From: Roseateles sp.
GTDB taxonomy: Bacteria; Pseudomonadota; Gammaproteobacteria; Burkholderiales; Burkholderiaceae_C
Assembly (NCBI GenBank): GCA_016790285.1
Contig: JAEUPJ010000054.1
Coordinates: 1-45,093 of the forward strand
Direction of reading: 5' to 3'
Length of the DNA: 45,093 bases
Shown: positions 1,765 through 45,093 of the stretch, in pieces
Position numbering within the stretch: position 1 is the stretch's first letter
Layout of the letters: the number at the start of each line of letters is the position of its first letter
Made by a program: the position numbers and the translations under genes
Notes under the pieces: model-generated
Seen by the model: only the letters and a program-made list of their open reading frames with translations
What the model was told of the DNA's origin: nothing
The model's database searches: none

Positions 1765-1780
1765 CCGAAGGAGTAGACCC

Positions 1781-2606: not shown

Positions 2607-2648
2607 GGCTCCATTACGGCGAACATCGGTGGCTCTATTACGGCGGTC
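2607..2648 (-). repeat. Two inverted copies of the IS21 terminal repeat (right end)
   Basis: Inverted copies of the left-end 18-bp motif lie at 2607-2624 and 2631-2648, 24 bp apart. The right end therefore has two sites against five on the left, the usual asymmetry of IS21-type ends. Confidence 0.85.
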
Positions 2649-2655
2649 GGTGACA

Positions 2656-13383: not shown

Positions 13384-13392
13384 CGCGGACCT

Positions 13393-16297: not shown

Positions 16298-16308
16298 GGG
16301 GACCTCGC

Positions 16309-23365: not shown

Positions 23366-23438
23366 GCAAAGCGTGCAGCACCCTGCCCTGGTCCGCTGCC
23401 GGATCCGGAGAAGGCGCTTCGTGGGCGACCAGGACAGA

Positions 23439-25504: not shown

Positions 25505-26100
25505 GGCGTCGGCGCCCCACCACCACCGGCTTTCCCCGGGCCGACACGCAGATCGACATCCGCCGTCACGCGCGCTGAAGCGGCGCGCCGACGAGCGCCC
25601 GCGGCATCGGCCGCCTCCCAGACAAAGCTGCTGTCCCGGAATTCGAGTCTGCCGACCACCTCCGCGAACTGCACGTCGCCGGCGCCGGCTTGTATTGGCA
25701 GTGCCGCCTGACGCTCACGCCACGCCACCGACAGCTCATGTGCCCCTGGCGTCAGGCGCAACCGGACCAACCCGCCGGGCACCAGCTCCGCGACGGGTCG
25801 TCCGTCGACCCGGAGCGTCAGCGCGCGCGTCGCGCCGGCGCGCTCAATCCATTGCACGAGCACTTGCGCACTGGCGGGGTCTGGTGCGAACGCCTGAACC
25901 TCGCGCGCCACTTCCGCGGCAGGCGACGGCTGCGCAGCACAGATCCGACTGGGCCGGTGGGTCTTGCGGAAGGTCACGCATGGCAAGCCGTCGACATCAC
26001 GAACGACCGGCTGTACCCCGCCACAGGCAGTGAAGCCCATCAAACAGACAAGGGCCGCCGTCAAGTTGCGGCGGCGCAGAAACGCAGCGCCATCAGTCAT
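25501..26100 (-). CDS. Putative lipoprotein of the metal efflux operon
   Basis: 199 residues from ATG 26100; an upstream in-frame start would lie deep in the preceding gene. A basic start (LRRRN) and hydrophobic stretch lead to GFTAC-GG, a plausible lipobox, so it is probably a membrane-anchored lipoprotein. The middle (ALTLRVDGRPVAELVPGGLVRL then LTPGAHELSVAW) is like the DUF2846-type beta domain of small lipoproteins. The tail is rich in Ala and Gly. Its start overlaps the stop of the outer-membrane factor by 8 bp. Confidence 0.72.
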   Translation of the reverse strand: MTDGAAFLRRRNLTAALVCLMGFTACGGVQPVVRDVDGLPCVTFRKTHRPSRICAAQPSPAAEVAREVQAFAPDPASAQVLVQWIERAGATRALTLRVDGRPVAELVPGGLVRLRLTPGAHELSVAWRERQAALPIQAGAGDVQFAEVVGRLEFRDSSFVWEAADAAGARRRAASARVTADVDLRVGPGKAGGGGAPTP

Positions 26101-27334: not shown

Positions 27335-27633
27335 GTCAGTTCTCCATGCTTCAGGACAGCGGTCACCCAATGGCGCACACCGCTGCCCCGCAGTTCCCGG
27401 CGCAGTTCCTCGATCAGCTCGTCCACCTCGCTCTGCGGGAGCACGAGGTGAATGAGGCTGGCCTCGCTGCGCCCGCTGACCTGCTCGGCAGCGCTGAGCC
27501 GGCCATGCGCAAAGCCGTGCGCGCGGGTCGGGGCACTCGTGAAGACACCCGCCCCGCCACGCGCGAGCAGAAGGTCAATGGCGCGCTCCTCCACGGCCAA
27601 GGGGCAAAGCAGGTGAAGGCAGCAGTCAGTCAT
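27331..27633 (-). CDS. DUF3240 small protein of metal efflux operon
   Basis: 100 residues, cytoplasmic, no signal. It starts with Cys/His-bearing MTDCCLHLLCPLA, followed by AIDLLLARGG, FTSAPTRAHG, LSAAEQVSGR and a C-terminal RHWVTAVLKHG, the layout of DUF3240 (a small ferredoxin-like, PII-like domain). DUF3240 genes are found within heavy-metal RND operons, where a sensing or pump-regulating role is suspected. It overlaps the pump gene by 8 bp and the outer-membrane factor by 4 bp. Confidence 0.87.
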   Translation of the reverse strand: MTDCCLHLLCPLAVEERAIDLLLARGGAGVFTSAPTRAHGFAHGRLSAAEQVSGRSEASLIHLVLPQSEVDELIEELRRELRGSGVRHWVTAVLKHGELT

Positions 27634-30600: not shown

Positions 30601-30727
30601 AGACATCGGGAAAGGCGTCGATGGGCAGTTCGCGGAACGACCACCAGCCAAAGCCGGCGAGCAGCGCCGCTCCCAGCAGCACGAAGAGACGCTGCGACAG
30701 CGCGAACTGCACGAGTCGGCTCAGCAT
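27626..30727 (-). CDS. Heavy-metal RND (HME) efflux pump of the second system
   Basis: 1033 residues (CzcA/CusA family). ATGATG gives two possible starts (30730 and 30727); the second is taken because GGAGG lies 6 bp before it. The frame is open far upstream, but that part overlaps the adaptor gene. N-terminal helix LVQFALSQRLFVLLGAALLAGF, porter loops, and the relay helix GMLVDAAVVVVEN (about residues 396-408) are present. The stretch DPMGLNQTDTFLVLKPRKDW is close to divalent-ion pumps such as CzcA rather than CusA, so Zn, Co, Cd or Ni is a guess. It works with the adaptor 30727-31830 and the channel 26093-27334. Confidence 0.93.
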   Translation of the reverse strand: MLSRLVQFALSQRLFVLLGAALLAGFGWWSFRELPIDAFPDVSSTQVKVILKAPGMTPEEVETRIAAPIEVEMLGIPRQKMLRSVSKYGIVDVTVDFEDGVDIYWARQQVAERLSGIQGELPPGLSGGMAPITTPLGEMFQFTVEAPDMPLEERRALLDWVIRPALRTVAGVADVNALGGKVRAFEVVPDLPRLAALGLSTSALKAAIEQNNRNDGAGRLGDGDEVLLVRAEGNLRSADDIAATVVLRRGGVPVRVGDVADVRLGSLTRYGVVTKDGKGEAVEGLVLGLAGANARKVVEGVERKLIELQGTLPKGVSIKPFYNRAHLVDQAVGTVSKALLEATVLVLVLLGAFLGNLRAAVTVALVLPLAALWTFIAMRLWGMSANLMSLGGLAIALGMLVDAAVVVVENVVQHLAHDRATGRLPRLHVLLRAVREVASPVAAGVLIIVTVFLPLLTLQNLEGKFFVPVALTIVFALAGSLLLSLTVIPVVASFLIHNPSHEEPWLVRQLQRLYAPALRLALKREKAVYAFAILLLVLAAGVYVRVGKTFMPTMDEGDLIVGIEKLPSISLEESAALDLRVQQALLSQIPEIQGMVARAGADEIGLDPMGLNQTDTFLVLKPRKDWQLADKDALIARIREVLEGMPGIRYAFTQPIDMRVSEMILGVRGDLAVKVFGPDLGVLGDLAGRIEAVLKTVPGNQDVYTVRNDGVQYLRVAIDRLAAGQHGLSVEEVQDALRAQVEGQRAGQLIEGVRRTPIVLRGPESVRLSPAEFEGLQIATPQGRSVPLRNVASLSRTGGPVQVNRELGSRYSVVIANVQGRDLVGFVEEARRKVAEDVKLPTGYRLSWGGQFENQQRAAARLALVVPLALGIIFVILFSTFGSVRQSLLVLSNIPFALVGGIVGLWVTGEYLSVPASVGFIALLGIAVLNGVVLVSYFNQLHAEGLTLIQCVVQGCHRRLRPVLMTAFITAFGLIPLLMATGPGSEIQRPLAIVVIGGLITATALTLILLPVLYLRYGRPAPAGLATPEMAHD

Positions 30728-31830
30728 CATTCGCCTCCGCCATGGCCAAGCCAGGCCGACTTGAGCGCGACCACCGCGCGCACGGCGACTTCCTGGCCGG
30801 ACTGCAGTTGACCCGAGACCTGCACGGCGCCGGCCGCGCCGCCGTTGACCTGGACGGGCACCGCCGCGAAGCCTCGCGCCGTGCGCACGAACACATGCGG
30901 CTGGCCCTCGTGATGCACCACGGCCGCCTGGGGCAGGACCCACCCTGCCCCGCCGGCACGCGGCACGTTGACCTGAACGACTTCGCCGGGTCGGAGACTT
31001 GTTGCACCTCGCGTAACGCGCGCCCTCAGCGTTTGCGTCTGCGCTTCACTCACGAGTGGTCCGAGCGACTGCGCCACGGCCGACACGTCGCGCCCCGCGA
31101 CGGTGATCGCCTGCCCCGGCGCCACTGAGGCCCCCACGGGCAGTTGAACCTCCAGCCAGACCTCGCGCGGGTTCGCCAGCCGAAGCAAGGCATCTGCCTC
31201 ATGAACCCGCTGGCCCGGCCGCACTTCCAGCGCCGTGACCCAGCCCGCTGAACGGGCAAAGACCGTCAGCCCGTCCTGCAAGCGCCCTCCTGCGGCCACA
31301 CGCTGGAGGGCCTCATCGCTCATGCCCGCCAGATGCAACGCTGCCTCGGCCTGACGGGTGGCTGCCTCAGCGGACCTGTGTGCGGCCTGTGCCTCCTGCA
31401 CCCGACGCTCCGGCAGGATGCCTTCGTCGAACAGGCGGCGATCGCGGTCCAGGGTCTGTCGTGCGAGCTGCAGCCGGGTCCCGGCTTCCATCAGCCGCAG
31501 CTGCATCTCACCGAGTGCCGGGCTGACAAGCCGCAGCAAGGCCTGGCCCGGCTTGACGGCGTCCTGGGGGTTCACGAACACCTGGGTCACCACGCCGTCC
31601 ACCGGTGCACTGACCAGGACGTCCAGCTCCGCTGGCAAAGTCACCTTGGCGGGCGCGCTCCCCCCGGTGGCGCTGGACGGCGCAACCAGCTTTTGCAAGC
31701 CGACGCCCAGCGCCTGGAGCTGCACGGGGGCAACGACAAAGTCTGCGGCAGGGGCGGCCGCCACGGCCAGGGTTGCCCAGGAACTGAGCACAAACGCAGG
31801 CCAGAGCCGGCGTCGATGAGATGACAGCAA
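30727..31830 (-). CDS. Membrane fusion protein of the second metal RND pump
   Basis: 367 residues from TTG 31830 with GGAG 6 bp upstream; the longer frame to 31989 adds residues without protein character and overlaps the 31928-31944 operator. A signal peptide (HRRRLWPAFVLSSWATLAVAAA) leads to the adaptor: lipoyl halves (VSAPVDGVVTQVFVNPQDAV and FARSAGWVTALEVRPGQRV), helical hairpin (about 150-190) and barrel (WLEVQLPVGASVAPGQ). Its stop overlaps the pump start. It bridges pump and outer-membrane channel. Confidence 0.88.
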   Translation of the reverse strand: MLSSHRRRLWPAFVLSSWATLAVAAAPAADFVVAPVQLQALGVGLQKLVAPSSATGGSAPAKVTLPAELDVLVSAPVDGVVTQVFVNPQDAVKPGQALLRLVSPALGEMQLRLMEAGTRLQLARQTLDRDRRLFDEGILPERRVQEAQAAHRSAEAATRQAEAALHLAGMSDEALQRVAAGGRLQDGLTVFARSAGWVTALEVRPGQRVHEADALLRLANPREVWLEVQLPVGASVAPGQAITVAGRDVSAVAQSLGPLVSEAQTQTLRARVTRGATSLRPGEVVQVNVPRAGGAGWVLPQAAVVHHEGQPHVFVRTARGFAAVPVQVNGGAAGAVQVSGQLQSGQEVAVRAVVALKSAWLGHGGGE

Positions 31831-31927
31831 GTTGCACTCCCAGAATCGTTCGGACTGCCATCTCGCAACCTGACGAGACAGGCCAGCGGCGTGCGGCAGC
31901 GACTGGCGGCGAGTCTGGTTGGCACCC

Positions 31928-31944
31928 CTTAAGCACGGCTGAAG
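31928..31944 (+). promoter_or_regulatory. OmpR-type direct repeat upstream of second efflux genes
   Basis: CTTAAG-N5-CTGAAG, an 11-bp-spaced direct repeat, lies in the 163-bp gap between the degenerate regulator and the adaptor gene. It matches the YTTAAK-N5-YTTAAK pattern of PmrA/QseB-type boxes. The response regulator 24815-25471 is the likeliest binder. Confidence 0.6.
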
Positions 31945-31993
31945 CTGGCGCGAAACACCCGTGTTTGCGGCGTGTCGATCGCTGTGCATCGTT

Positions 31994-32617
31994 TCAAGGC
32001 TGCGCGATCAGCACATATCCATAGCCACGCACCGCACGGATGCCGGCATCGGGCAGCTTGCGGCGCAGCCGATGGACATGCACATCCAGCGTGTTGCTCT
32101 CGAACTCCTGGCCCCAGACGTGCAGGGCGGCCTCGAGCCGATCCCTCGGCACCGCCTGGCCCGCTTGCGCAATCAGCACCTGGAGCACGCGGCACTCCCG
32201 CGGCGTCAGTTGCACGAGTCGGCCTCGATGCGTGACCGTGCGGGACACGGGGTCCAGCGCCAGCGGCGCCGGAGCCGTCAACCTGGACAGCGGTTCCAGC
32301 AGCAGCGACGCATCGCAGGGCCACGCGAGCACGACCTCCGCGAGGCCGCAGTCATCAACTGCCGGCTGGGCGCCCTTCCCTGCCGTAGGGATCAGGCACA
32401 GGCCCCTTGGCGGCGGTGAATCGGCCGTGGTGGCCATGGCCAGCCATACCGGCGCCATCGCGACAAGCACCTCGCCACTGCGCACGCGAGGCGGTAGCCG
32501 CCCCTCGCGCCTCACCGGCCAGCCACGCGCCGCCGCCAGCGCCATCAAGGTGTCGAGGGCATCCATCGGCATCTGGTGAACGGCCAGCAGCAGGTGGTTT
32601 CGGGGGCTCTTCGGCAT
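31994..32617 (-). CDS. OmpR-like winged-helix regulator with degenerate receiver
   Basis: About 207 residues from ATG 32617 (a GTG at 32638 is also possible; neither has a clear ribosome site). The C-terminal half (about 110-205) is a clear OmpR-type winged helix: LTPRECRVLQVLIAQAGQ, NTLDVHVHRLRRKLPDAGIRAVRGYGYV. The N-terminal half starts NHLLLAVHQMPMDALDTLMALAAARGWPV, where a receiver would have its acidic pair, and has no aspartate at the phosphorylation position (GEVLVAMAPVWLAM) and no conserved Lys. It is therefore probably not controlled by phosphorylation. It heads the efflux operon, with 11-bp-spaced repeats on both sides. Confidence 0.83.
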   Translation of the reverse strand: MPKSPRNHLLLAVHQMPMDALDTLMALAAARGWPVRREGRLPPRVRSGEVLVAMAPVWLAMATTADSPPPRGLCLIPTAGKGAQPAVDDCGLAEVVLAWPCDASLLLEPLSRLTAPAPLALDPVSRTVTHRGRLVQLTPRECRVLQVLIAQAGQAVPRDRLEAALHVWGQEFESNTLDVHVHRLRRKLPDAGIRAVRGYGYVLIAQP

Positions 32618-32642
32618 CGGGGCCGGAGCTTTGGTCACAAGG

Positions 32643-32659
32643 CTTAAGCCAAGGTGAAC
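32643..32659 (+). promoter_or_regulatory. OmpR-type direct repeat before degenerate regulator
   Basis: CTTAAG-N5-GTGAAC with the same 11-bp step as the site at 31928-31944, placed 26 bp upstream of the regulator's ATG at 32617. It would suit control of the regulator's own promoter. The second half-site is imperfect. Confidence 0.5.
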
Positions 32660-32711
32660 CCGGAGCCTGACCCTTCGCCAGCGGCAAAGGCTCAATCACC
32701 AAGCGGCCCAA

Positions 32712-32822: not shown

Positions 32823-33692
32823 ATGCCGGAACTGACCTCAACGCCCTCCACCGCACGCGCTGCTGCAACGCAGGGGCGCGACCGCTACTCGGTGGGCGAA
32901 GGGTGGGTCAGCATTGGAATCGGTACCATCGTGGCGACTGCCTGGGCTGTCGTGCAGCTCGCCGGCCTGCAGGCCACGAGTGAACTCGGCTACTGGCTGG
33001 GCATCGCCGGCGGATCGGCGATGTTGTTACTTTTTGCGTACCCCCTGCGCAAGCGCATGCGGGTGCTGCAGCAGCTGGGCCCGGCCAAGCCGTGGTTCGT
33101 CGCGCACATGGTGCTGGGCATCGCTGGCCCGGTGCTGATCCTGCTGCATTCCGGCTTTCGAGTTGGCTCCCTGAACGCGGGCGTCGCGCTGTGGAGCATG
33201 CTCATCGTCGCGGGCAGCGGTGTGGTTGGCCGCTTCCTGTACCTGCTGACTCACCGCGGCCTGGCCGGCGAACACGAGGAACTCGGCCGCCTTTTGCATC
33301 AGCTGGGCACCTCAGAGGCCCGTGGTGACTCGGTATGGGGCGATACGCCCTCGGTCACCACGCCCCTGCATCGCTTTGTGAGCGACGCCCGCCACCTGGC
33401 CTCGCGACCCGGGCATGACGTGGCGGGTCATTTCACGGCCTTCGTTCTGCTGCCCTGGCGTCGCAGCAGGGAGCTTCGAGAGGCTCGCCGGACGTCGCGT
33501 GCTATCGCACGGGCGGGTGCCCCCTCGCATGACCTCGTCGCCATCGGTGAAGCCTACGCTGGCGCCCTGCGCGTGGCGCAGTTTGGGCGCGCCACGCGCC
33601 TGTTCGAGCTGTGGCATGTGCTGCACATCCCGTTCGTGTACTTGATGGTGATCTGCGCCGTCGTGCACATCGTGGCCGTTCACGTCTATTGA
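32823..33692 (+). CDS. His-rich polytopic inner-membrane protein, probable cytochrome b-like subunit
   Basis: 289 residues. Membrane helices at about 30-50, 56-76, 92-111, 119-143 and 265-287, with a cytoplasmic-type basic region (about 215-232) in a long loop. Histidines lie in or next to helices: H95, H109, H144, H265, H268, H282 and H287, enough for one or two b-type haems as in cytochrome b561 or ferric-reductase-like proteins. No CxxCH is present. It is the first gene of the cytochrome operon and is followed after 45 bp by the 24-haem cytochrome. A role in passing electrons between quinones and the periplasmic cytochrome is inferred from position and histidines; the family is not certain. 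Confidence 0.78.
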   Translation: MPELTSTPSTARAAATQGRDRYSVGEGWVSIGIGTIVATAWAVVQLAGLQATSELGYWLGIAGGSAMLLLFAYPLRKRMRVLQQLGPAKPWFVAHMVLGIAGPVLILLHSGFRVGSLNAGVALWSMLIVAGSGVVGRFLYLLTHRGLAGEHEELGRLLHQLGTSEARGDSVWGDTPSVTTPLHRFVSDARHLASRPGHDVAGHFTAFVLLPWRRSRELREARRTSRAIARAGAPSHDLVAIGEAYAGALRVAQFGRATRLFELWHVLHIPFVYLMVICAVVHIVAVHVY

Positions 33693-33737
33693 GGCCATGA
33701 ATCGTGCGCACGCGACACGGCTCCCCGGAACGCGCTC

Positions 33738-35555
33738 ATGACGCGAGTGCTCCGGATGCTGCTTGGTCATGGGTGGGCGTTTCGGCTGGCAGCCCTGGTG
33801 CTGTTGCTCAGCGCTGCACCGAGCCAAGCTGCCGGGTCGATGGAGTCCGCCCTCTCGCCGGGCGTGCTGACCCAGGCGCACGCCAAGTGGGACGACAGCT
33901 GTCGCAGTTGCCACACGCCCTTCGACCGCAAGGACCAGGACCGGCTGTGCGCGGACTGTCACAAGGACATTGGTCGAGACATGTCAGCGCGCACCGGCCT
34001 GCACGGGCGACTGAAGGCCGCGCAGAGCTGCCGCTCCTGCCACACCGAACACAAAGGGCGTGATGTGAAGATCGCGCCGCTGGACACCAGGGCCTTCGAC
34101 CACGCGCAGACGGACTACACGCTGCGTGGCAGGCACCGCGACGCAGACTGCGCCAAGTGCCATGCGCCCGGCCGCAAGTACAGCGCGGCACCGCAGGAAT
34201 GCAACGGCTGCCATCGCAAGGACGACGTGCACAAGGCATCGCTGGGCGCCAAGTGCGACAGCTGCCACGACGAACGCGGCTGGCGCGAAACGCGGTTCGA
34301 CCACGGCACGACGCGTTTCCCGTTGCTGGGCGCCCACGACACCGTGAAATGCGAGAGCTGCCACCGCACCCGCGAGTACAAGGACGCGCCGCGAGATTGC
34401 ATCGGCTGCCATCGCAAGGACGACAAGCACAAGACGCAGTTCGGCGAGAAGTGCGAGAGCTGCCACAGCGAGAAGCGTTGGCGAGACATCAGCTTCCGTC
34501 ATGACATGGACACCCGCTACCCACTGCGGGACAGGCATCGGGATGTGAAGTGCACCGGCTGCCACACGGGGAACCCGTATCGCGACAAGCTCGAAACGAC
34601 GTGCATCAGCTGCCACCGCAAGGACGACAAGCACAAGGCCACGCTCGGCGCCGAATGCAACGGTTGCCACAGCGAACGGGGCTGGCGCGAGGTTCGGCGC
34701 TTCGACCATGACCGCACCGCGTTCGCCTTGCTGGGTCGGCATGTCAAGGTCGACTGCAAATCCTGCCACCAGAGCCTGGTATACCGCGAAGCCCCCAGCA
34801 CCTGCATCGGCTGCCACAAGAAGGACGACAAGCACCAGGGCCACCTCGGTGAGCGCTGTGCCGACTGCCACACCGAAACGGATTGGGTCGCCCGCCGTTT
34901 CGACCACGCCCAGACCACCTTCCCGCTCCGGGGTGCGCATGCTGCTGCGACCCTGAAATGCGACAGCTGCCATCGGGACGCGCGCAGCTACCGCGGCACG
35001 CCCACCGCTTGTGTGGACTGCCACCGCCAGGATGACAAGCACGACAGCCAGCTCAGCGACCGCTGCCAGAGCTGCCACGGTGAGAGCAGCTGGCGCGTGG
35101 CGCGCTATGACCACAGCCGTGCGCGGTTCGCCTTGACGGGCGCTCACCAGACTGCCGACTGCAAGTCCTGTCACGCCACGCGGCGCTTTCGCGACGCGCC
35201 TCGCACCTGCATCGGCTGCCACGCGAAGGACGACAGGCACAAGGCACGCTTCGGCACGGGCTGCGAGTCCTGCCACGGCACGCGCAGCTGGAAGACATGG
35301 CGCTTCGACCACGACCGCGAGACCCGCTATCCCCTGATCGGCCGACACCTGCGTGCCGCATGCGAAGGCTGTCACGCCCGGCCCGCCGGGGCCGGCGCGC
35401 GCGCTGCCCCCTTGGAGACCACCTGCGTCAGCTGCCACGCGCGCGACGACGTGCATGAACGCAGCTTCGGCCTGCGCTGCGACCAGTGCCACCAGCCCAG
35501 CGGCTGGCCAGACCTCGACACCCGCCGCAATCCGCGGTCTGCCGGAGCATCCTGA
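33738..35555 (+). CDS. 24-haem c-type cytochrome, periplasmic
   Basis: 605 residues with a signal peptide (...LAALVLLLSAAPSQA). I count 24 CxxCH motifs, each a covalent haem site. From residue 155 the protein is a tandem repeat of 66-72 residues with three haems each (CIGCHRKDDKHK...C..CH...W...FDH...GxH...C.SCH); unit starts fall at 34200, 34398, 34602, 34803, 35010, 35208 and 35424. Each unit also has three conserved extra histidines (KHK, FDH, GxH), so all haems could be bis-His. It is far larger than the decahaem MtrA. Position suggests a periplasmic carrier between the inner membrane and the outer-membrane barrel. Its TGA overlaps the next ATG. Confidence 0.93.
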   Translation: MTRVLRMLLGHGWAFRLAALVLLLSAAPSQAAGSMESALSPGVLTQAHAKWDDSCRSCHTPFDRKDQDRLCADCHKDIGRDMSARTGLHGRLKAAQSCRSCHTEHKGRDVKIAPLDTRAFDHAQTDYTLRGRHRDADCAKCHAPGRKYSAAPQECNGCHRKDDVHKASLGAKCDSCHDERGWRETRFDHGTTRFPLLGAHDTVKCESCHRTREYKDAPRDCIGCHRKDDKHKTQFGEKCESCHSEKRWRDISFRHDMDTRYPLRDRHRDVKCTGCHTGNPYRDKLETTCISCHRKDDKHKATLGAECNGCHSERGWREVRRFDHDRTAFALLGRHVKVDCKSCHQSLVYREAPSTCIGCHKKDDKHQGHLGERCADCHTETDWVARRFDHAQTTFPLRGAHAAATLKCDSCHRDARSYRGTPTACVDCHRQDDKHDSQLSDRCQSCHGESSWRVARYDHSRARFALTGAHQTADCKSCHATRRFRDAPRTCIGCHAKDDRHKARFGTGCESCHGTRSWKTWRFDHDRETRYPLIGRHLRAACEGCHARPAGAGARAAPLETTCVSCHARDDVHERSFGLRCDQCHQPSGWPDLDTRRNPRSAGAS

Positions 35556-38500
35556 TGGCACGACGAGCGCTGTCCGCCCGAATCCTGTGGCTGGCCCTGG
35601 TGCTGCTGGTCAGCCTGGCGGCCGTCCTTCATGCGTCCAGGCCTGCGATAGCGGCCACGGGGGCCGCCGAATTCGATCACCTGAAGACAGGCTTCGCCCT
35701 CACGGGCGCCCACCAGAACCAGCGTTGCGAGAGCTGCCACCAGGCCGGTGTTTTCAAGGGCACGCCAAGGGACTGCGAGTCCTGCCACACCGCGGGCGCG
35801 CGGCTGGCCAAGACCAACATCGTCAAGCCGGCCACCCACATCCCGACCAGTCAGAGCTGCGACAGCTGCCACGGCACACGCAGCTTCACCGGCGCCCGGA
35901 TGGAGCACAAGGGCGTGGCGGCCGGCACCTGCGCCAACTGCCACAACGGCATCCAGTCCAGCGGCAAGCCCGCCGATCACCAACCCACCACCGCCAGCTG
36001 CGACAGCTGCCACCGCACGAGCGCCTGGAAACCGGCCTCCGGCTTCAACCACGCCGGCGTCGCGCCAGGCAGCTGTGCCAGCTGCCACAACGGCGTCAAG
36101 GCAACCGGCAAGTCCGCCAACCACACGCCGTTCGCGGCCGTCGCATCACTCGCCAGCCTGGCCTGTGACAGCTGCCACAAGGCCGGCTTCTCATCGTGGA
36201 CACCCGCGAAGCTGCACGCGAGCGCCTCAGTGAGCGACAGCTGCGCCACGTGCCACACGGCCCTGAAGCCCAACACGGCCGTGCATGCAGGCCAGTCCAA
36301 CTGCGAGAGCTGCCACAAGAGCACCTCCTCCTGGGCGGGCGCGAAGGTGGACCACAGCGGCTTCACGTCTGCGACGAACTGTGCCAGCTGCCACAACGGC
36401 AGCGCCGCCACCGGAAAACCGCCAGCCCATATGCCGGTGGCCGCCACCAACTGCGTGACCTGCCATGCCACCACCGGCTGGAAACCCGCCAAATGGAACC
36501 ACACCCAGCTGCCGGTGACGGGCCAATGCGCGAGTTGCCACAACGGCGCCTACCCACCCGCTGACGGCAAGCCCGCCACGCACACGCCCTACACCGGCGT
36601 GACCGCCCTCGCCTCCCTGGGTTGCGACAGCTGCCACAAGGCGGGCTTCACCGCCTGGGCGCCCGCGAAGCTGCACGCCAGCGTCAACGTCAGCAGCAGC
36701 TGCGCCAGCTGCCACGCCAGCAGCAAGCCGAACACGGCCATTCACGCCGGCCAGACCGTCTGCGAGAACTGCCACAAGAGCACCAGCAGCTGGAACACCG
36801 CCAAGGTCGACCACAGCAGCTTCAACGCCGCCACCAACTGCGCCAGCTGCCACAACGGCAGCAGCGCCACCGGCAAGCCTGCCGCGCACATCCCCGTGGC
36901 CGCCACGAACTGCATCAGCTGCCATGCCACCTCGGGCTGGAAGCCGACCAAGTGGAACCACACGCAACTCCCGGTGACGAGCCAGTGCGCGAGCTGCCAC
37001 AGCGGCGCCTTCCCGCCGGCGGACGGCAAGCCGGCCATCCACACGCCGTATCAGCTGGTGGCGTCACTGGCCGCGTCCAACTGCGACAGCTGCCACAGGG
37101 CAGGCTTCACCGCGTGGGCGCCCGCCAAGCTGCACGCCAGCGCCACGGTCATCGACAGCTGTGCCAGCTGTCATGCCGGCAGCAAGCCCAACACCGCGAT
37201 CCACGCCGGGCAGACCGTCTGCGAGAACTGCCACAAGAGCACCAGCAGCTGGAGCTCGGCCAAGGTGGATCACAGCGGCTTCACGAGCGCCACCAACTGC
37301 GCCAGCTGCCACAACGGCAGCAGCGCGACCGGCAAGCCTGCCGCGCACATCCCCGTGGCGGCCACGAACTGCATCAGCTGTCATGCCACCACGGCCTGGA
37401 AGCCCACCAAGTGGAACCACACCCAGCTGCCCGTCGCCAACCAATGCGCGAGCTGCCACAGCGGCACTTTCCCGCCCGCCGATGGCAAGCCAGCCAATCA
37501 CACGCCCTATCAGCTGGTGGCGTCCCTGGCGACCTCGAATTGCGACAGCTGCCACAAGGCCGGCTTCACGACCTGGGCACCGACCCGGCTGCATGCCAAC
37601 GTCAGCGTCAGCAGCAGTTGTGCGACCTGCCATGCGTCCACCAAGCCCAACACGGCCATCCATGCGGGACAGACGGTCTGCGAGAACTGCCACAAGAGCA
37701 CCAGCAGCTGGAACAGCGCCAAAGTCGACCACAGCAGCTTCACCGCCGCCACCAACTGCAGCAGTTGCCACAACGGCAGCAGCGCCACGGGCAAGCCCGC
37801 CGCGCACATCCCGGTGGCTGCCACGAACTGCATCAGCTGCCACACCACCGGCGGCTGGAAGCCCACCAAGTGGAACCACACGCAGCTGCCGGTGACGAGC
37901 CAGTGCGCAAGCTGCCACAACGGCGCCTACCCGCCGGCAGACGGCAAGTCGGCCAGCCACACGCCCTACCAACTGGTGGCCACGCTCGCGAGCGCCAACT
38001 GCGACAGCTGCCACAAGGCGGGCTACAGCGCGTGGACGCCCGCCAAGCTGCACGCCAGCGTCACCGTGGTGAACAGCTGCGCGAGTTGCCATGCCGGCAG
38101 CAAGCCCAACACGGCCATCCACGCCGGCCAGACCGTCTGCGAGAACTGCCACCGCAGCACGACCACCTGGACGGGCGCCAAGGTGGACCACAGCACGTTC
38201 ACCGTGGCCACCAACTGCAGCAGCTGCCACAACGGCAGCAGCGCGACGGGCAAGCCCGCCGCGCACATCCCGGTGGCCGCCACGAACTGCATCAGCTGCC
38301 ATGCCACCACAGGCTGGAAGCCGACCAAGTGGAACCACACACAACTGCCGGTCGCCAACCAATGCGCAAGCTGCCACAACGGTGCCTACCCGCCGGCTGA
38401 CGGCAAGTCAGCCAGCCACGCGCCCTACCAGCTGGTGGCCACGCTCGCGAGCGCCAACTGCGACAGCTGCCACAAGGCGGGCTACACCTCGTGGACGCCC

Positions 38501-39337
38501 GCCAGGCTGCACACCAGCGTCACGGTGGTCAACAGCTGCTCGTCGTGCCACCTGTCGGTCCGCCCCACGAATGCTCTGCACGCCGGCCAGACCGCCTGCG
38601 AGAGCTGCCACAAGAGCACCACCACCTGGACCGGAGCCAAGATCGACCACAGCACGTTCACCGTCGCCACCAACTGCAGCAGCTGCCACAACGGCAGCGC
38701 GGCCACCGGCAAGCCCGCAGGGCATATGCCGGCCGGGACCACGAACTGCATCGCCTGCCACAGCACCACGGGCTGGAAGCCCACCAAGTGGAACCACACC
38801 CAGATGCCGGTCGCCGGGCAATGCGCGAGCTGCCACAGCGGCGCCTACCCGCCAGCTGACGGGCGGCCTGCCGGGCACATCCCGTACCAGACCCTGACCG
38901 GCGTGGTGACCAGCAATTGCGACAGCTGCCACAAGGCGGGCTACGCCTCCTGGGCAGGCGGGCGCTTCCACGCGAACGTGAGCGTCACGGGGCAGTGCAA
39001 GACCTGCCACAGCGGCAGCTACACCTCGCAGGGCGCGACCGCCAAGCCAACCAACCACATCCCCGAAGCGCAGCTGCTCAACGGCGCCGCCATGGAGTGC
39101 AACGCCTGCCACACCAGCGTGACGAGCTGGGCGCAGCGGATGAACCACAACGGCAGCCAGGGCAGTGGCGCGGGCTGGTGCAAGGCCTGCCATGCCTCCG
39201 GCACCAACTACCTCGGGTCGATGGAGCGCAAGTCGCTGACCCATCGCACCAAGACGCCAGTCCCGACGGACTGCTCCGAGTCTGGCTGTCACCGCCCCCT
39301 GGGCAACAAGGGCACGCCCTACACGAAATGGGATTGA
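35555..39337 (+). CDS. Giant multihaem c-type cytochrome, 46 CxxCH plus one CX4CH
   Basis: 1260 residues; ATG at 35555 overlaps the previous stop and has GGAG 7 bp upstream. Signal peptide (ILWLALVLLVSLAAVLHA...) without lipobox. Haems 1-2 sit in a module like those of the 24-haem protein (FALTGAHQNQRCESCH). Haems 3-6 form two looser dihaem modules. Residues 204-1121 are six copies of exactly 153 residues, each with six CxxCH and six other conserved His (LHAS, IHAG, VDHS, AHIP, WNHT, HTPY). A partial seventh copy (from 1122) holds haems 43-46 and a final CSESGCH (1240-1246). Each 153-residue unit is three dihaem modules of 46, 50 and 57 residues. It looks like a covalent haem wire for long-range electron transfer, at or beyond the outer membrane. 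Exact cell location is inferred. Confidence 0.95.
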   Translation: MARRALSARILWLALVLLVSLAAVLHASRPAIAATGAAEFDHLKTGFALTGAHQNQRCESCHQAGVFKGTPRDCESCHTAGARLAKTNIVKPATHIPTSQSCDSCHGTRSFTGARMEHKGVAAGTCANCHNGIQSSGKPADHQPTTASCDSCHRTSAWKPASGFNHAGVAPGSCASCHNGVKATGKSANHTPFAAVASLASLACDSCHKAGFSSWTPAKLHASASVSDSCATCHTALKPNTAVHAGQSNCESCHKSTSSWAGAKVDHSGFTSATNCASCHNGSAATGKPPAHMPVAATNCVTCHATTGWKPAKWNHTQLPVTGQCASCHNGAYPPADGKPATHTPYTGVTALASLGCDSCHKAGFTAWAPAKLHASVNVSSSCASCHASSKPNTAIHAGQTVCENCHKSTSSWNTAKVDHSSFNAATNCASCHNGSSATGKPAAHIPVAATNCISCHATSGWKPTKWNHTQLPVTSQCASCHSGAFPPADGKPAIHTPYQLVASLAASNCDSCHRAGFTAWAPAKLHASATVIDSCASCHAGSKPNTAIHAGQTVCENCHKSTSSWSSAKVDHSGFTSATNCASCHNGSSATGKPAAHIPVAATNCISCHATTAWKPTKWNHTQLPVANQCASCHSGTFPPADGKPANHTPYQLVASLATSNCDSCHKAGFTTWAPTRLHANVSVSSSCATCHASTKPNTAIHAGQTVCENCHKSTSSWNSAKVDHSSFTAATNCSSCHNGSSATGKPAAHIPVAATNCISCHTTGGWKPTKWNHTQLPVTSQCASCHNGAYPPADGKSASHTPYQLVATLASANCDSCHKAGYSAWTPAKLHASVTVVNSCASCHAGSKPNTAIHAGQTVCENCHRSTTTWTGAKVDHSTFTVATNCSSCHNGSSATGKPAAHIPVAATNCISCHATTGWKPTKWNHTQLPVANQCASCHNGAYPPADGKSASHAPYQLVATLASANCDSCHKAGYTSWTPARLHTSVTVVNSCSSCHLSVRPTNALHAGQTACESCHKSTTTWTGAKIDHSTFTVATNCSSCHNGSAATGKPAGHMPAGTTNCIACHSTTGWKPTKWNHTQMPVAGQCASCHSGAYPPADGRPAGHIPYQTLTGVVTSNCDSCHKAGYASWAGGRFHANVSVTGQCKTCHSGSYTSQGATAKPTNHIPEAQLLNGAAMECNACHTSVTSWAQRMNHNGSQGSGAGWCKACHASGTNYLGSMERKSLTHRTKTPVPTDCSESGCHRPLGNKGTPYTKWD
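36164..38917 (+). repeat. Six tandem 459-bp repeats inside the giant cytochrome gene
   Basis: Copies begin at 36164, 36623, 37082, 37541, 38000 and 38459, with a partial seventh from 38918; every step is exactly 459 bp with no insertion or deletion. Long runs are identical at the DNA level between copies, most visibly in copies 2-5. This points to recent duplication or continuing gene conversion, and the copy number could vary between strains. Confidence 0.95.
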
Positions 39338-39342
39338 GACCG

Positions 39343-41565
39343 ATGCACCACCATGGCCGCCGCACGAACGCCTCGTCAAGGGAGGCACTGCGCCAGCATT
39401 TGAGCGCCCTCGGGGTGGCCGCCCTGCTCTGCATGGCCGGCGTACCAGCCCACGCCCAGGTGCTGGACGACGTCGAAGCGCGTCGAGATGGGCGCGATGC
39501 CATCGTCACGGTGCGCTTCGCCGCCCCAGTGCAGCTGGTGCGCACCGTATCGGCCCGCAGCGGCGACCTGGCCCAGGTCTACTACGACGTGCTCGCCTCG
39601 GGCGATGCACTCAACCTCGTCACCAGCGAACGGCGCGTGCCGCTGGCCACGGGTGGCTTCCTGGTGCTGTTGACCGACGAGGCCGCAGGCACGGCCGAGC
39701 GCAGCCGCAAGCTGGTGCTGCGGTTCAGCACGAGCACCACCTTCACTGCGCGCCCTGGCCAGGGCAACCGCAGCATCGAGCTGGTGCTCGCGCATCGAGC
39801 GGATGCCCTCGCGCTGCCCCCGCCGGCCGTCGCAGCCACTCCTGCGCCGGCCGAGCCTGCAGCGCGCCCCTTGACCTCGGTCGAGGAAGACCGATCGCGC
39901 GCGGCGCTGGCTGCCGCAAGGCAACTCATCGAGCAGGGCGAACACGGTCAGGCCCTGGAGCGCCTGGATGAAGTGCTGGCCTTGCCGCCACATGCTGGCC
40001 GCGTGGATGCCCTCGAGTTGCGTGCCACTGCCCGCTGGCGCCAAGGCGACCCGGAAGGTGCCCGTGCGGACTACGAACGCTACCTCGCGCTCTACCCCCA
40101 AGGGCCAGGCGCCGCGCGAGCCCGGGAAGCGCTGTTGACGCTCGCACCGCCCGCGCCGTCGGTCGTTGAAGCCGCCATCCAGGCCGGGCGCAACCCGGAG
40201 CGCGCGGCGGCCACCACTTCGCTGGCCGGCTCGCTCGCGGTCATGTACTACGGCGGGCAGTCCAAGGTGCGCACGCAGGAGTTCCAGGACTCGCCGCTGG
40301 GTGGCCTGCCGCAGCTGGTCAACGACGCAACCCTGTCGGGCACCGACCAGCGGCAGCTGCTCTCGAGCGTGGACGTGAACTGGCGCCGTCGCGACGCAGA
40401 CAGCGACCTGCGCTTCGTGCTGCGTGACACCAAGACCAACGACCTGATGCGGCCCGAGAAGAGCCGCAACAAGCTGACGGCGCTCTACGTCGACTACAAG
40501 CTCACCGCCCCCGGCGCGCAGCTGCGCCTGGGCCGGCAGTCGCCGACGGGCGGTGGCGTCATGGGGCGTTTCGACGGTGTGCAGGTGGGTTACCGCTTCG
40601 CCCCGCGCTGGCGCGTCAATGCCGTGGCAGGTGCGCCGACCGACAAGCTGCTGGACGCCAGGCGCCGCTTCTGGGGCGTGTCGCTCGATGCGGACGAGGT
40701 TGCCAAAGGCTTTGGCGGCAGCCTGTACTGGATCCAGCAAACCCTGGACGGCCAGTCCGACCGCCGCGGCGCGGGTGCAGAGCTGCGCCTGCTCGCCGGC
40801 CAGTTCACGGCGCTGGGCTCGCTGGACTACGACCCTCAGCTCAAGGGCTGGAACATCGTCTCCACCCAGTCCACATGGCAGGGGGCGGACAACACCATCG
40901 TGAACGTCCTGTACGACCGCCGTGCCACGCCCATGCTGATGCTGGGCAACGCCCTGTTCTTCCAGAACCCGGTCGCCCAGGTGCAGGCGCGCACGCTGTA
41001 CGAACTGCTGATGACGCAGAGCCTGCCCGTGCTTCGACAGCAGGTCCGCGGCACCACTGCCTTCAGCACGCAAGCGATGGTCAGCGTGACGCGACCGCTG
41101 ACACCGCACTGGCAGGCCGGTGCAGACGTGCGGCTGACGAACGTCGGTGCACTTGCACCTGTGGCAGACATCCTGCCCAACGGCCAGCCGGGGACGGGGA
41201 ACGTGTGGAGCATGGGCGCCCAGCTCATCGGCACGAACCTCTATTCGGTGCGAGACACGCACGTGGTGCTCCTGACCTTGCTGCGCGGCCCGACCTACCA
41301 CGGGGAACTCCTGTCCTACAACAACGCCTCGGCGGTCGGCGAAGGCTGGCTGCTGGAACCTTCCCTGCGCCTGTATCAGCAGACCGAGGACAGCGGCCTG
41401 CGAACGCGGCGCTGGGCGCCGGGCCTGCGCGCCAGCAAGCGGTTCATGACCAAGTGGGTGGCCGAGTCGGAGCTGAGCATGGAATTCAGCAGCGCCAGGA
41501 GCGCCATGCGCAACGAGAACTCGCACCGCACGTTCTACTACGCGGGATTGCGCTATGACCTTTGA
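39343..41565 (+). CDS. Outer-membrane beta-barrel protein with N-terminal TPR region, probable conduit porin
   Basis: 740 residues from ATG 39343. A long signal sequence ends at about residue 38 (...CMAGVPAHA-Q). Then come a beta-rich, AMIN-like domain (about 40-150), a Pro/Ala linker, a TPR-like helical region (about 180-245: AALAAARQLIEQGEHGQALERLDEVL, YERYLALYPQG), and a C-terminal half of alternating strands (about 265-740: LRFVLRDTKTND, GAQLRLGRQSP, VGYRFAPRWRVNAVAG) ending FYYAGLRYDL, as expected for a large beta-barrel. In porin-cytochrome systems such a barrel holds the cytochrome across the outer membrane; here the TPR may bind one of the two cytochromes. It has no CxxCH and no clear MtrB signature. 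ccmA overlaps its end by 11 bp. Confidence 0.85.
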   Translation: MHHHGRRTNASSREALRQHLSALGVAALLCMAGVPAHAQVLDDVEARRDGRDAIVTVRFAAPVQLVRTVSARSGDLAQVYYDVLASGDALNLVTSERRVPLATGGFLVLLTDEAAGTAERSRKLVLRFSTSTTFTARPGQGNRSIELVLAHRADALALPPPAVAATPAPAEPAARPLTSVEEDRSRAALAAARQLIEQGEHGQALERLDEVLALPPHAGRVDALELRATARWRQGDPEGARADYERYLALYPQGPGAARAREALLTLAPPAPSVVEAAIQAGRNPERAAATTSLAGSLAVMYYGGQSKVRTQEFQDSPLGGLPQLVNDATLSGTDQRQLLSSVDVNWRRRDADSDLRFVLRDTKTNDLMRPEKSRNKLTALYVDYKLTAPGAQLRLGRQSPTGGGVMGRFDGVQVGYRFAPRWRVNAVAGAPTDKLLDARRRFWGVSLDADEVAKGFGGSLYWIQQTLDGQSDRRGAGAELRLLAGQFTALGSLDYDPQLKGWNIVSTQSTWQGADNTIVNVLYDRRATPMLMLGNALFFQNPVAQVQARTLYELLMTQSLPVLRQQVRGTTAFSTQAMVSVTRPLTPHWQAGADVRLTNVGALAPVADILPNGQPGTGNVWSMGAQLIGTNLYSVRDTHVVLLTLLRGPTYHGELLSYNNASAVGEGWLLEPSLRLYQQTEDSGLRTRRWAPGLRASKRFMTKWVAESELSMEFSSARSAMRNENSHRTFYYAGLRYDL

Positions 41566-42178
41566 GTCGCCCGGCCTGGTCTACGCCGAGAACCTGGGCT
41601 GCGAGCGCGGCGGGCGGCGCGTGCTGACCCTGGCGCAGCTGACACTGCAGCGCGGAACAGGCCTCTGGTTGCGTGGGCGCAATGGCTCAGGCAAGACAAC
41701 CCTGCTGCGCACGCTGGCCGGGCTGAGCGAACCCGCCACCGGTACGCTCTGGCGCGATGAAGACGCGCAGCTGCTGTACGTCGGCCACAGCCTGGCGGTG
41801 AAGGACGACCTCAGCGTGGCAGACAACCTGCAGTGCCTCGCAGACATCGCCGCCTTGGAGGTGCGCCCGCGAGCAATCCAAGGCGCGCTGATGCGCTGGC
41901 AGCTGTGGGAGCGCCGTCACCAACCAGCGCGGCGACTGTCCCAAGGGCTGCGCCGCCGGGTCAGTCTGGCCCGGCTGGATCTGGCCGCCGGCAGGCCGCT
42001 GTGGCTGCTGGATGAGCCCTTTGACGCGCTTGATGACGAGGGGCAGGGCCTGCTGGCACACGCATTGATGGGCCACCGACTGCGCCGCGGCGCCTGGGCG
42101 CTGAGCAGTCACCAGGGTCTGCCCGCCGAAGTGAATCCCGTGCGAACGCTGTGGCTGGACGAGAAGGCGCCCGCATGA
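41555..42178 (+). CDS. ccmA: Haem exporter ATPase CcmA
   Basis: 207 residues, ABC ATPase of cytochrome c maturation system I. Walker A GRNGSGKTT (about 42-50), signature LSQGLRRRVSLAR (about 128-140), Walker B LWLLDEPFDALD, and H-loop SSHQ are intact. With CcmB, CcmC and CcmD it releases haem-loaded CcmE. Its ATG lies inside the last codons of the barrel gene (11-bp overlap), so translation is coupled to the cytochrome conduit genes. Confidence 0.96.
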   Translation: MTFESPGLVYAENLGCERGGRRVLTLAQLTLQRGTGLWLRGRNGSGKTTLLRTLAGLSEPATGTLWRDEDAQLLYVGHSLAVKDDLSVADNLQCLADIAALEVRPRAIQGALMRWQLWERRHQPARRLSQGLRRRVSLARLDLAAGRPLWLLDEPFDALDDEGQGLLAHALMGHRLRRGAWALSSHQGLPAEVNPVRTLWLDEKAPA

Positions 42179-42900
42179 GCCACGTCATGTCAGAACGCAC
42201 ACCGGCTCGTACGGAGGTCGGCACGCGGATCGCGTTGCACGCCGCGCTGGCCATCTGGCGCCGCGACTGGCAGCTGGCCCAGCGCCACCGAGGCGAGGCC
42301 TTGCTGCCGCTGGGCTTCTTCCTGGTCAGCGCATCGCTGCAACCGCTCGGGCTGAGCCCGGAGCCTTCGCTGCTGCGCCAGGTCGCGCCGGGCCTGATCT
42401 GGTCGGCCGCCCTGTTGGCCGCGCTGCTGCCCCTGCCCGCACTGTTTGCGCAGGATCAAGTCGACGGCAGCCTGGACCAGATGTGCCTGGGCGCTGCTCC
42501 GCTATGGCTGGTGGCGTTGTTCAAGGTCCTGGGCCATTGGTGCTGGGCAGGGGCACCCTTGATCCTGATGTCTCCGCTGCTGGGTGTCCTGTATGGCCTG
42601 GACGCCGCCGCCATCGCGACGCTCGCGACCAGCCTGCTGCTCGGCACACCCGTGCTCAGCCTGCTCGGTGCCGTCGGGGCTGCGCTGACCGTCGGCCTGC
42701 GCCAGGCTGCCGCGCTGATCCTGCTCATCGTGCTCCCGCTGGCAGTGCCCGTCCTGGTGTTCGGAGCCAGTGCCGTGCAGGCCACCCAGGCAGGTCAAAC
42801 CCCGCTCGCTCCGCTCGGGCTGATCGCCGCGCAACTGCTGGTCATGGCCTGGGTCGCCCCCTTCTTGATCGCCAAGGCCTTGCGCCTGGCCTGTGAGTGA
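42175..42900 (+). CDS. ccmB: Haem exporter membrane subunit CcmB
   Basis: 241 residues with about six membrane helices, normal for CcmB. The ATG overlaps the ccmA stop (ATGA). Family-like segments include FAQDQVDGSLDQM near residue 90 and LSLLGAVGAALTVGLR near 165. Partner of the CcmA ATPase. Confidence 0.95.
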   Translation: MSHVMSERTPARTEVGTRIALHAALAIWRRDWQLAQRHRGEALLPLGFFLVSASLQPLGLSPEPSLLRQVAPGLIWSAALLAALLPLPALFAQDQVDGSLDQMCLGAAPLWLVALFKVLGHWCWAGAPLILMSPLLGVLYGLDAAAIATLATSLLLGTPVLSLLGAVGAALTVGLRQAAALILLIVLPLAVPVLVFGASAVQATQAGQTPLAPLGLIAAQLLVMAWVAPFLIAKALRLACE

Positions 42901-42903
42901 ACC

Positions 42904-43683
42904 ATGCCAGCTTCCAGCAGCCTTCCCCTGCCCGCCCCGCGGTGGCGCGCCTTCTCCCTGGCCTCGCCAGCGACGTTCTGCCGTGTCATGAAGCGCATCG
43001 TGCCGGCACTCTGGGCCACGAGCCTCCTGCTGGCGATCGCGGGCCTCTACGTCGGCTTCGTCGTCGCGCCCACCGACGCCACGCAGGGCGAGGCCTACCG
43101 CATCATCTACATCCACGTGCCCGCGGCCTGGCTCTCCATGCTGCTGTATGTAGCGATGGCGTTCTGGGCCGTGCTGGGTTGGGCATGGAAGGTGCGCATG
43201 GCCTCGGTGCTGGCGCAGGCCATCGCCCCCACGGGGGCGCTGTTCACGCTCCTGGCGCTCTGGACCGGCGCCTGCTGGGGCAAGCCAACCTGGGGCACCT
43301 GGTGGGTGTGGGACGCACGCCTGACCAGCGAGCTGATCCTGCTCTTCCTCTACGTGGGCTTCATGGCGCTGGCAGCCAGCTTCGAGGAACCGCGCCGGGC
43401 TGATGCTGCGTCGGCGCTGCTGGCACTGGTCGGCGTGGTCAACGTGCCCATCATCTACTTCTCGGTGAAGTGGTGGAACACGCTGCACCAGGGCGCGTCT
43501 GTCAGCTTGACCGCCGCGCCCAAGATGGCTTCGACGATGTTGACGGCCATGCTGTTGATGACCCTGGCGTGCTGGGCCTACGCCTTTGCGGCCGTATTCG
43601 CGCGTGCCATTGCCGCGGTGATCGAGCGTGATGCCGACCACCTGTGGGTGGTCGAGTTCCTGGATTCGGAGTCCCGCCGATGA
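42904..43683 (+). CDS. ccmC: Haem handling protein CcmC
   Basis: 259 residues, six helices, with the tryptophan-rich WWD signature WGTWWVWDARLTSEL (about residues 137-151) that binds haem for transfer to CcmE. Periplasmic-loop histidines lie in IIYIHVPAAW and NTLHQGAS. ATGA overlap with ccmD. Confidence 0.97.
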   Translation: MPASSSLPLPAPRWRAFSLASPATFCRVMKRIVPALWATSLLLAIAGLYVGFVVAPTDATQGEAYRIIYIHVPAAWLSMLLYVAMAFWAVLGWAWKVRMASVLAQAIAPTGALFTLLALWTGACWGKPTWGTWWVWDARLTSELILLFLYVGFMALAASFEEPRRADAASALLALVGVVNVPIIYFSVKWWNTLHQGASVSLTAAPKMASTMLTAMLLMTLACWAYAFAAVFARAIAAVIERDADHLWVVEFLDSESRR

Positions 43684-43907
43684 GTTTCTCCACGTTGAAC
43701 GACGTGCTCGCCCTGAACGGCTATGGCGTCTACGTGTGGCCAGCCTATGCCGCGATGCTCGCTGGACTGCTGTTTGAGCCCTGGCTGATCCACCGGCGGA
43801 CAGTGCGCGCCCGTGCGCTTGCCCGCGATCAATGGCATGCCACGCAACCCGGTGGTGAGGGCGCAACGGCATGGAGTTCAACCCGCCAGCCAGGAGACGG
43901 CGAATGA
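43680..43907 (+). CDS. ccmD: Haem exporter accessory protein CcmD
   Basis: 75 residues: one membrane helix ([20 protein letters not shown]) followed by a basic cytoplasmic region ([15 protein letters not shown]), the usual CcmD plan. It helps release haem-bound CcmE from CcmABC. It overlaps ccmC and ccmE by ATGA. The tail beyond residue 55 is longer than average. Confidence 0.9.
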
Positions 43908-44338
43908 AGCCGCGTCACTGGAAACTGGCCGCTGCCGCAGGCCTGCTCGTCACGCTGGGCATCGCCACCGCCCTGGTGCTGCGCGCCTTCAACAGCAACC
44001 TCGTGTTCTTCTACACGCCCACCCAGGTGGGTGCCGGCGAAGCGCCCCAGGGCCGGGTGTTCCGCGTGGGCGGCATGGTGGAGGCAGGCAGCGTGACGCG
44101 CGATGGCGTGAATGTCAGCTTCCGCGTCACCGACACGGCACGGACGATGACCGTCACCTACCAGGGCATCCTCCCTGACCTTTTCAAGGAGGGCAAAGGC
44201 GTTGTCGCGCAGGGGCGGATGGTCGACGGCAGGTTCATCGCACAGGAAGTGCTCGCCAAGCACGACGAGAACTACATGCCTCCAGAAGCCGCTGCAGCAA
44301 TGCGAGCCGCTTCCGCTGCGCGCGGAGGTCGCCCATGA
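43904..44338 (+). CDS. ccmE: Haem chaperone CcmE
   Basis: 144 residues: N-terminal membrane anchor ([20 protein letters not shown]), OB-fold beta barrel in the periplasm, and the haem-binding segment [13 protein letters not shown], in which His covalently binds haem before transfer to apocytochromes by CcmF/CcmH. Normal length. ATGA overlap with ccmF. Confidence 0.97.
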
Positions 44339-45093
44339 TGGCTGAGCTCGGTCACCTGGCACTGTGGCTGGCACTGGGCTGTTGCCTGCTGCAATCGGTC
44401 GTGCCGCTGTGGGCCTTGCACCGCCAGCGCCATCACTGGCTGGCCCTCACGCGGCCGACGGCGCACGTCACCGCGGCCCTGGTGGCGGTCGCGTTTGCCT
44501 GCTTGACCGCCGCCTTCGTGCAGGACGACTTCTCGGTGCTGTACGTGGCCGAACACAGCAACACGGCACTGCCCCTGGCGTACAAGGTAGCAGGCGTCTG
44601 GGGCGGGCATGAAGGCTCCCTGCTGCTGTGGTTGCTGATGCTGCAGGTCTGGACGGTCGCCGTGTCGCTCGCCAGCCGGCGCCTGCCCGAAGCCCTGGTG
44701 GTGCGACTGCTGACCGTGCTGGCGTGGGTCGCACTCGGCTTCCTGCTGTTCATGCTGCTCACGTCCAATCCCTTCGAGCGCCTGTGGCCCGTGCCGCTGG
44801 ACGGCCGAGACCTCAATCCCCTGCTGCAGGACCCGGGCATGGTCATTCACCCGCCCATGCTCTACATGGGCTACGTCGGGTTCTCGGTCGCGTTTGCCTT
44901 CGCCATCGCGGCATTGCTGAGCGGTGAACTGGACGCGCAGTGGGCGCGCTGGACGCGCCCCTGGACCACCGCCGCCTGGGTGTTCCTCACGCTCGGCATC
45001 GCCCTGGGCAGTGGCTGGGCCTACTACGAACTGGGCTGGGGCGGCTGGTGGTTCTGGGACCCGGTGGAGAACGCCTCCTTCATGCCCTGGCTG
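44335..45093 (+). CDS. ccmF: Cytochrome c haem lyase subunit CcmF (5' part)
   Basis: The frame runs off the window end after about 250 residues; ATGATG at 44335-44340 gives two possible starts and ATGA overlaps ccmE. Multi-helix protein with [38 protein letters not shown] and the WWD-type signature [20 protein letters not shown] at the window edge, all diagnostic for CcmF. It ligates haem to CxxCH motifs with CcmH/CcmI, expected to follow. Confidence 0.96.

Follow-up and report, generated by a model that had tools for sequence, protein, structure and literature searches.

Among the described porin-cytochrome systems, the closest to the gene cluster analyzed here is PCC3, which was named by He et al. 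in 2017 and whose extracellular cytochromes possess a median of 34 heme-binding motifs and up to 85, with a median of 26 residues per motif and with repeats already noted (PMC5566968). Further PCC3 systems are reported in Gallionellaceae, for which AlphaFold models were presented in 2023 (PMC10734462), in Leptothrix and Sphaerotilus (PMC13386937) and in Sideroxydans CL21 (PMC12442390); in the sections of these papers cited here, their role is predicted or unverified. Heme wires concatenated in a single chain are also described in Geobacter, where GSU1996 contains 12 and GSU2210 contains 27 hemes (PMC10138318), while a review of 2019 gives ~27 hemes as spanning a 200 Å periplasm and ~630 Å as the length of an 86-heme chain (PMC7096707). 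Here we examine a stretch of 45,093 nucleotides of Roseateles sp. (GCA_016790285.1, contig JAEUPJ010000054.1, positions 1 to 45,093; hereafter the window), in which positions 32823-41565, judged from the encoded sequences, are a PCC3 porin-cytochrome cluster, here with ccm (heme-attachment) genes added. The gene order is IMP (inner-membrane protein), 24-heme cytochrome, 47-motif cytochrome, outer-membrane protein, ccmA, B, C and E, and a cut CcmF/NrfE lyase. The first four genes are as follows.

32823..33692, + strand: PCC3-type IMP of 289 aa that carries SGXXG and, twice, WX3HX13H; probably di-b-heme and quinone-facing
33738..35555, + strand: 24-heme periplasmic cytochrome, 605 aa, with triheme repeats and 24 CxxCH; orthologues in relatives
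35555..39337, + strand: cytochrome of 1260 aa and 47 motifs (46 CxxCH, one CX4CH), presumed extracellular
39343..41565, + strand: outer-membrane protein of 740 aa, a porin by homology, whose N-terminal part is TPR-like (TPR match)

These genes agree with PCC3 (PMC5566968) in all four components, the porin being one by homology. The published IMPs are ~300 aa long with two WX3HX13H motifs and SGXXG, and in the window IMP these motifs are W91xxxH95x13H109, S132-G133-xx-G136 and W264xxxH268x13H282, with motif residues that are invariant among 10 sequences, the window included; the b-hemes are predicted, here as in the cited part of PMC5566968. The adjoining cytochrome of 24 CxxCH, within the ~21-27 hemes of PCC3 periplasmic cytochromes, bears out the second large cytochrome that an earlier note on this DNA had placed beside the 47-motif gene, and its frame (33738-35555) is the only other stop-to-stop frame in the window with at least two CxxCH. 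The third gene encodes a large, repeat-rich cytochrome with a low residue-to-heme ratio, in which 46 + 1 motifs are arranged in tandem units at 26 residues per motif. An outer-membrane barrel had also been claimed; homology and synteny back the gene at 39343-41565 as encoding a porin with a putative barrel. Its protein has tblastn matches in 41 of the 89 loci compared (duplicates included), and homologues adjoin PCC3 cytochromes in relatives such as Leptothrix discophora (L089) and Sphaerotilus mobilis (L065). What sets the window copy apart from published PCC3 is the 153-residue hexaheme interior of the outer cytochrome and the ccm genes behind the porin, while its number of motifs is one that the published range covers; because PCC3 extracellular cytochromes reach 85 motifs, 46 CxxCH is no record. 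The designation "little-described system" is apt for function, which is unverified in the cited literature, but not for the system itself, which was named in 2017 and modelled in 2023, with an 86-heme chain reviewed in 2019. A literature search joining Roseateles with extracellular electron transfer returned no paper meeting all terms. The cluster of this Roseateles-like bacterium is genuine and well conserved, and it belongs to a kind already known; new are the pattern of a fixed inner and a modular outer cytochrome and a sister pair that is one unit apart.

OmcS filaments of Geobacter are polymers of separate hexaheme subunits. The outer cytochrome of the window resembles them in that a hexaheme unit is repeated into a long heme chain, and differs in being one polypeptide. 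The contrast with OmcS-type nanowires drawn in the earlier note agrees with a comparison against 177635 PDB sequences, in which UndA and chain A of 6r2q (Mtr) were the only matches at E ≤ 0.001; with no OmcS, OmcE or OmcZ among them, a relationship with OmcS was rejected. GSU1996 and GSU2210 share with the window protein the concatenation of several heme domains in one chain, but GSU1996 is periplasmic and consists of four triheme domains, each with one His-Met heme (PMC10138318), whereas the window protein is built of hexaheme units, offers a single free histidine for each motif and is encoded in a cluster with a porin. GSU1996-type tandem triheme c7 domains were therefore rejected, the window unit being hexaheme and 153 aa long, despite a TIGR04257 ("nanowire_3heme") score above cut-off (102.9 versus 40 bits). 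MtrCAB and MtoAB likewise combine a porin with a periplasmic cytochrome, and MtrCAB also has an extracellular cytochrome; the outer protein of the window matches 6r2q chain A weakly. Theirs are decaheme proteins, whereas the window outer protein has 47 motifs. Although the whole outer protein passes the cut-off of the decaheme family TIGR03508 (221.4 versus 192.2 bits), we take this score as a sum over repeats, because the family matches the genome in seven overlapping or adjacent stretches, all in the 47-motif gene and each of at most 49.7 bits; an MtrA-type decaheme cytochrome was rejected, since the motifs number 47 rather than 10 and no stretch scores above 49.7 bits.

The outer cytochrome gene starts with an ATG at 35555, of which the A is the final base of the upstream gene's TGA, and stops at 39337. 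Counting motifs in its translation gives the 46 CxxCH and one CX4CH in 1260 residues that the earlier note had claimed; the CX4CH is CSESGCH at residue 1240 and is the terminal motif, and no CX3CH is found. Chance clustering is ruled out by 2000 shuffles of the protein, which contained on average 0.49 and at most 5 CxxCH. Collapse of repeats during assembly is also unlikely and was rejected, because the longest exact direct repeat within the gene is just 55 bp. Past the signal peptide, 47 free histidines, equal to the number of motifs, are placed as candidate distal ligands. One free histidine is found in 45 of the 46 inter-motif gaps, and the exceptional gap, between motifs 1 and 2, has none and is offset by two ahead of motif 1. 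Across 38 complete outer frames, that of the window among them, the rule of one free histidine per gap likewise holds beyond motif 2, in 1240 of 1283 gaps. This match in count and placement is good sequence evidence that every motif, CX4CH too, is meant to bind a bis-histidine heme, and the protein would be loaded with heme in this way.

The motif spacing divides the outer protein into three parts, being 16-28-24-23-25-30 at first, then six times 26-20-26-24-25-32 (=153 residues) and finally 26-34-27-31.

35660..36121, + strand: N-terminal end, motifs 1-6, of which motifs 1-3 resemble the periplasmic triheme unit
36122..38875, + strand: six tandem 153-residue hexaheme units, motifs 7-42, from the spacing repeat and unit comparison
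38876..39337, + strand: C-terminal end, motifs 43-47, with CX4CH as the final motif

The six units are 67-88% identical to each other at the protein level. The concatenation of a hexaheme unit in one polypeptide, as previously claimed, holds for 36 of the 47 motifs, while the first six and last five motifs form distinct ends. By eye, each unit looks like three diverged diheme modules. From the slope of ~7 Å per heme in the cited part of the review (PMC7096707), we estimate that the 47-heme chain would be roughly 340 Å long and one hexaheme unit ~44 Å.

To compare the cluster with its relatives, genome contigs were scanned, and of the 466 relatives with PCC3-type IMPs found among 485 candidate stretches the best 80 were kept; in many cases the contig or stretch stops partway through the outer gene. 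After removing four duplicates (L011, L057, L074 and L099), 86 loci were compared, or 89 where duplicates are included, and motifs were counted in stop-to-stop frames with at least six CxxCH, with split genes (L031, L077 and L092) counted as found. Of the 77 rows in which the inner cytochrome is complete, 67 show 24 motifs, four show 27, two show 21, one shows 25 and one shows 23, and one gene is split into 9 + 15 motifs. Complete, unsplit frames of the outer cytochrome have 12 to 63 motifs. An inner count that is nearly fixed and an outer count that is variable would be expected if the periplasm limits just the inner one. The ends of the outer protein are shared: the opening spacings 16-28-24-23 occur in 32 of 69 N-terminal ends, with close variants in the remainder, and 27 of 38 complete frames close their motif series with CX4CH. 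The interiors differ, as in Thiobacillus (L048), where ~20 copies of a 47-residue diheme module take the place of the hexaheme units. Other modules observed are octaheme and of 205 aa in L025 (12648-16553) and heptaheme and of ~268 aa in L058 (3290-9926), and in L084 (12634-20774) the outer cytochrome has at least 72 motifs, with the stretch ending inside the gene. L085, L086, L094 and L098 depart from the usual order, the IMP there being preceded by the porin and by an outer cytochrome that is cut.

One or more hexaheme units can be recognized in 20 complete outer frames, which are related by descent; 16 of these have motif totals of 5 modulo 6 (23, 29, 35, 41, 47 and 53), including L025 with its mixed octaheme interior; the exceptions are L012 (39), L032 (25), L053 (21) and L031 (26, a split gene). 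The window, with six hexaheme units and 46 CxxCH, and Roseateles caseinilyticus (L020), with seven units and 52 CxxCH, are exactly one unit apart. Their N- and C-terminal ends are 92 and 95% identical, respectively, and the nearest counterparts of window units 1, 5 and 6 are units 1, 6 and 7 of R. caseinilyticus, in which units 4 and 5 are 97% identical to each other. In R. subflavus (L023) the identity between units 4 and 5 is 99%; this locus carries exact repeats of 175 bp, which make the motif counts of such relatives less safe. The near-identical neighboring units, the matching of units and the conserved ends indicate that interior units turn over while the ends stay; from species to species, the outer cytochrome appears to lengthen or shorten by entire repeat blocks. 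A literature search found no description of stepwise change in unit number, including in the cited parts of PMC12977616 and PMC12307469, although repeats as such were noted in 2017. More broadly, we propose, with the chances about evenly divided, that PCC3 may be a wire of fixed inner and adjustable outer length, in which conserved ends, the first of them a periplasmic-type triheme dock, enclose whole di-, hexa-, hepta- or octaheme modules that are duplicated or deleted in register, leaving the heme chain unbroken. If this is true, reach outside the cell would evolve by recombination alone, in steps of a few nanometres. The Roseateles pair would provide a natural length series in which conductance or reach could be related to heme number in one covalent chain, and a clear-cut example of a protein whose length shifts by entire functional modules. 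PCC3-type IMPs are common, yet the role of the complex is unverified in the literature cited.

The N-terminal end of the outer protein was compared with the inner cytochrome by building a profile from the triheme units of 67 complete inner cytochromes and applying it to the 67 outer rows whose N-terminus could be read, which leaves out eight rows that are short, split or without an N-terminal end. In all 67 outer proteins the best match lies over motif 1, with a median of 42.8 bits against 12.6 for the next stretch; in the window the corresponding scores are 41.3 and 14.5 bits. Based on this resemblance, the N-terminal triheme block probably serves to dock the outer protein, either on the inner cytochrome or within the porin, and thereby continues the inner wire, and the outer protein would be oriented with its N-terminus at the membrane.

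We consider it likely, leaving direction aside, that the cluster encodes a PCC3 electron conduit across the cell envelope. In this conduit, the IMP would exchange electrons with quinones via two b-hemes, the 24-heme cytochrome would bridge the periplasm, the outer-membrane protein would hold the crossing point and the 47-motif cytochrome would reach outside as a single covalent, all-bis-histidine heme chain, docked by its N-terminal block and with a string of hexaheme units, changeable in number, as its interior. For a concatenated multiheme polypeptide within an electron-transfer cluster that spans the envelope, as claimed earlier, the four PCC3 components in order and the IMP signature give good support. 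Electrons may flow inward from an extracellular donor, which we hold to be somewhat better than an even chance and likelier than outward flow; a RuBisCO large subunit is encoded in the genome, so that inward electrons would have a use.

Several observations weigh against this proposal. PCC3 is patchy, as the IMP is found in nine of 149 genomes and the 24-heme protein in two of 20 genomes of the genus, the genome of the window included in both counts, and an IMP at 10001-10897 of L096 lies in a 20.9-kb stretch without any frame of at least six CxxCH. The hydropathy scan of the window IMP does not cleanly resolve the five published transmembrane helices. The AlphaFold model of a fragment of the outer protein is poor (pLDDT 48.7, pTM 0.22), and that of the inner cytochrome is weak (pLDDT 72.9, pTM 0.32) with no significant fold match. 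The extracellular location of the outer protein is predicted by homology, and although a signal peptide is present, no lipobox that would account for anchoring or export is seen by eye. The link between RuBisCO and PCC3 is also not significant (six of nine versus 54 of 140 genomes, p = 0.16).

The same complex could work in the opposite direction and export respiratory electrons to extracellular acceptors, such as Fe(III), Mn(IV), humics or an electrode. We regard this as possible and as the less probable direction: flow through Mto/Mtr is evidenced as reversible in the cited part of PMC10734462 and no donor-specific gene was found in the window, but PCC3 is reported in several Fe(II)/Mn(II) oxidizers (PMC5566968, PMC10734462, PMC13386937, PMC12442390), and RuBisCO is present in the genome, though not specific. 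It is unlikely that the large cytochromes are a charge store or buffer for many electrons rather than a wire, as proposed for GSU1996, since a porin, an IMP and a nearly fixed 24-heme inner protein in one cluster suit a path better and the conserved N-terminal block fits docking; in favor of storage, a capacitor role has been raised for both PCC3 (PMC10734462) and GSU1996 (PMC10138318), and the motif number of the outer protein varies freely.

More doubtful still is a 47-motif protein that is released and polymerizes end to end into an OmcS-like filament with a far larger subunit. The signal peptide without lipobox and the repeat architecture would suit such a filament, whereas the PDB matches, which lack OmcS, OmcE and OmcZ, and the periplasmic-type block, which suggests a docked N-terminal end, argue against it. 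An outer protein that is largely apo, or a gene in decay, appears very improbable in view of the open frame, intact motifs, conserved free histidines and adjacent ccm genes; nothing was found to support it, except that heme loading is unreadable from sequence.

The heme-attachment machinery that had been claimed next to the conduit genes was found at 41555-45093.

41555..42178, + strand: CcmA, heme exporter ATPase, TIGR01189 over cut-off
42151..42900, + strand: CcmB, TIGR01190 over cut-off
42904..43683, + strand: CcmC, TIGR01191 over cut-off
43871..44338, + strand: CcmE heme chaperone, NF009729 over cut-off
44335..45093, + strand: CcmF/NrfE-type heme lyase, truncated by the window end, for which reason its TIGR03145/TIGR00353 match stays under cut-off

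This CcmB is the sole CcmB found in the draft genome (95% complete) and the System II protein ResB is encoded on a different contig of the same genome, so that the PCC3 cluster seems to bring its own System I. At least 15 of 89 loci, those of L. discophora and S. mobilis among them, have ccm genes 3' of the porin, and in the remaining loci these genes are located elsewhere or past the end of the stretch. CcmB was found in eight of nine PCC3 genomes and in 64 of 140 others (p = 0.015, uncorrected and with genomes related by descent), a count in which two of the 72 matches fall under the family cut-off.

A tree of 61 inner cytochromes places the window in a group of eight (support 100/99), seven of which have or probably have the 153-residue type, while L033 is too short to tell; the tree left out three further carriers of this type, with 27-heme inner proteins, and L012. 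Two PCC3 contigs group away from the taxa to which they were binned: JAPZAO010000098.1 (L072), assigned to Candidatus Methanoperedens, falls with Curvibacter (L032), and JAIBEL010000028.1 (L055), assigned to Rhizobium, falls with Thiobacillus (L048). Both placements are probably binning contamination.

A blastn search of 33738-39337 against plasmids returned no match. Upstream of the cluster, an RND efflux trio on the minus strand (26093-32695) adjoins PCC3, with a Trans_reg_C DNA-binding regulator between them; it is the second in the window, as another trio at 10240-17261, also on the minus strand, is accompanied by a DUF411 gene and a cupredoxin gene and perhaps confers resistance to copper or another metal. 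On the plus strand, 22595-24833 contains two successive frames, the first of 256 aa with a partial match to Ntox46 and the second of 486 aa without a Pfam match. At 187-8945, a transposase pair with an IstB_IS21 ATPase lies beside a 2184-aa DUF4011/AAA/REase_MTES_1575 protein, which presumably resembles large helicase-nuclease defense proteins.

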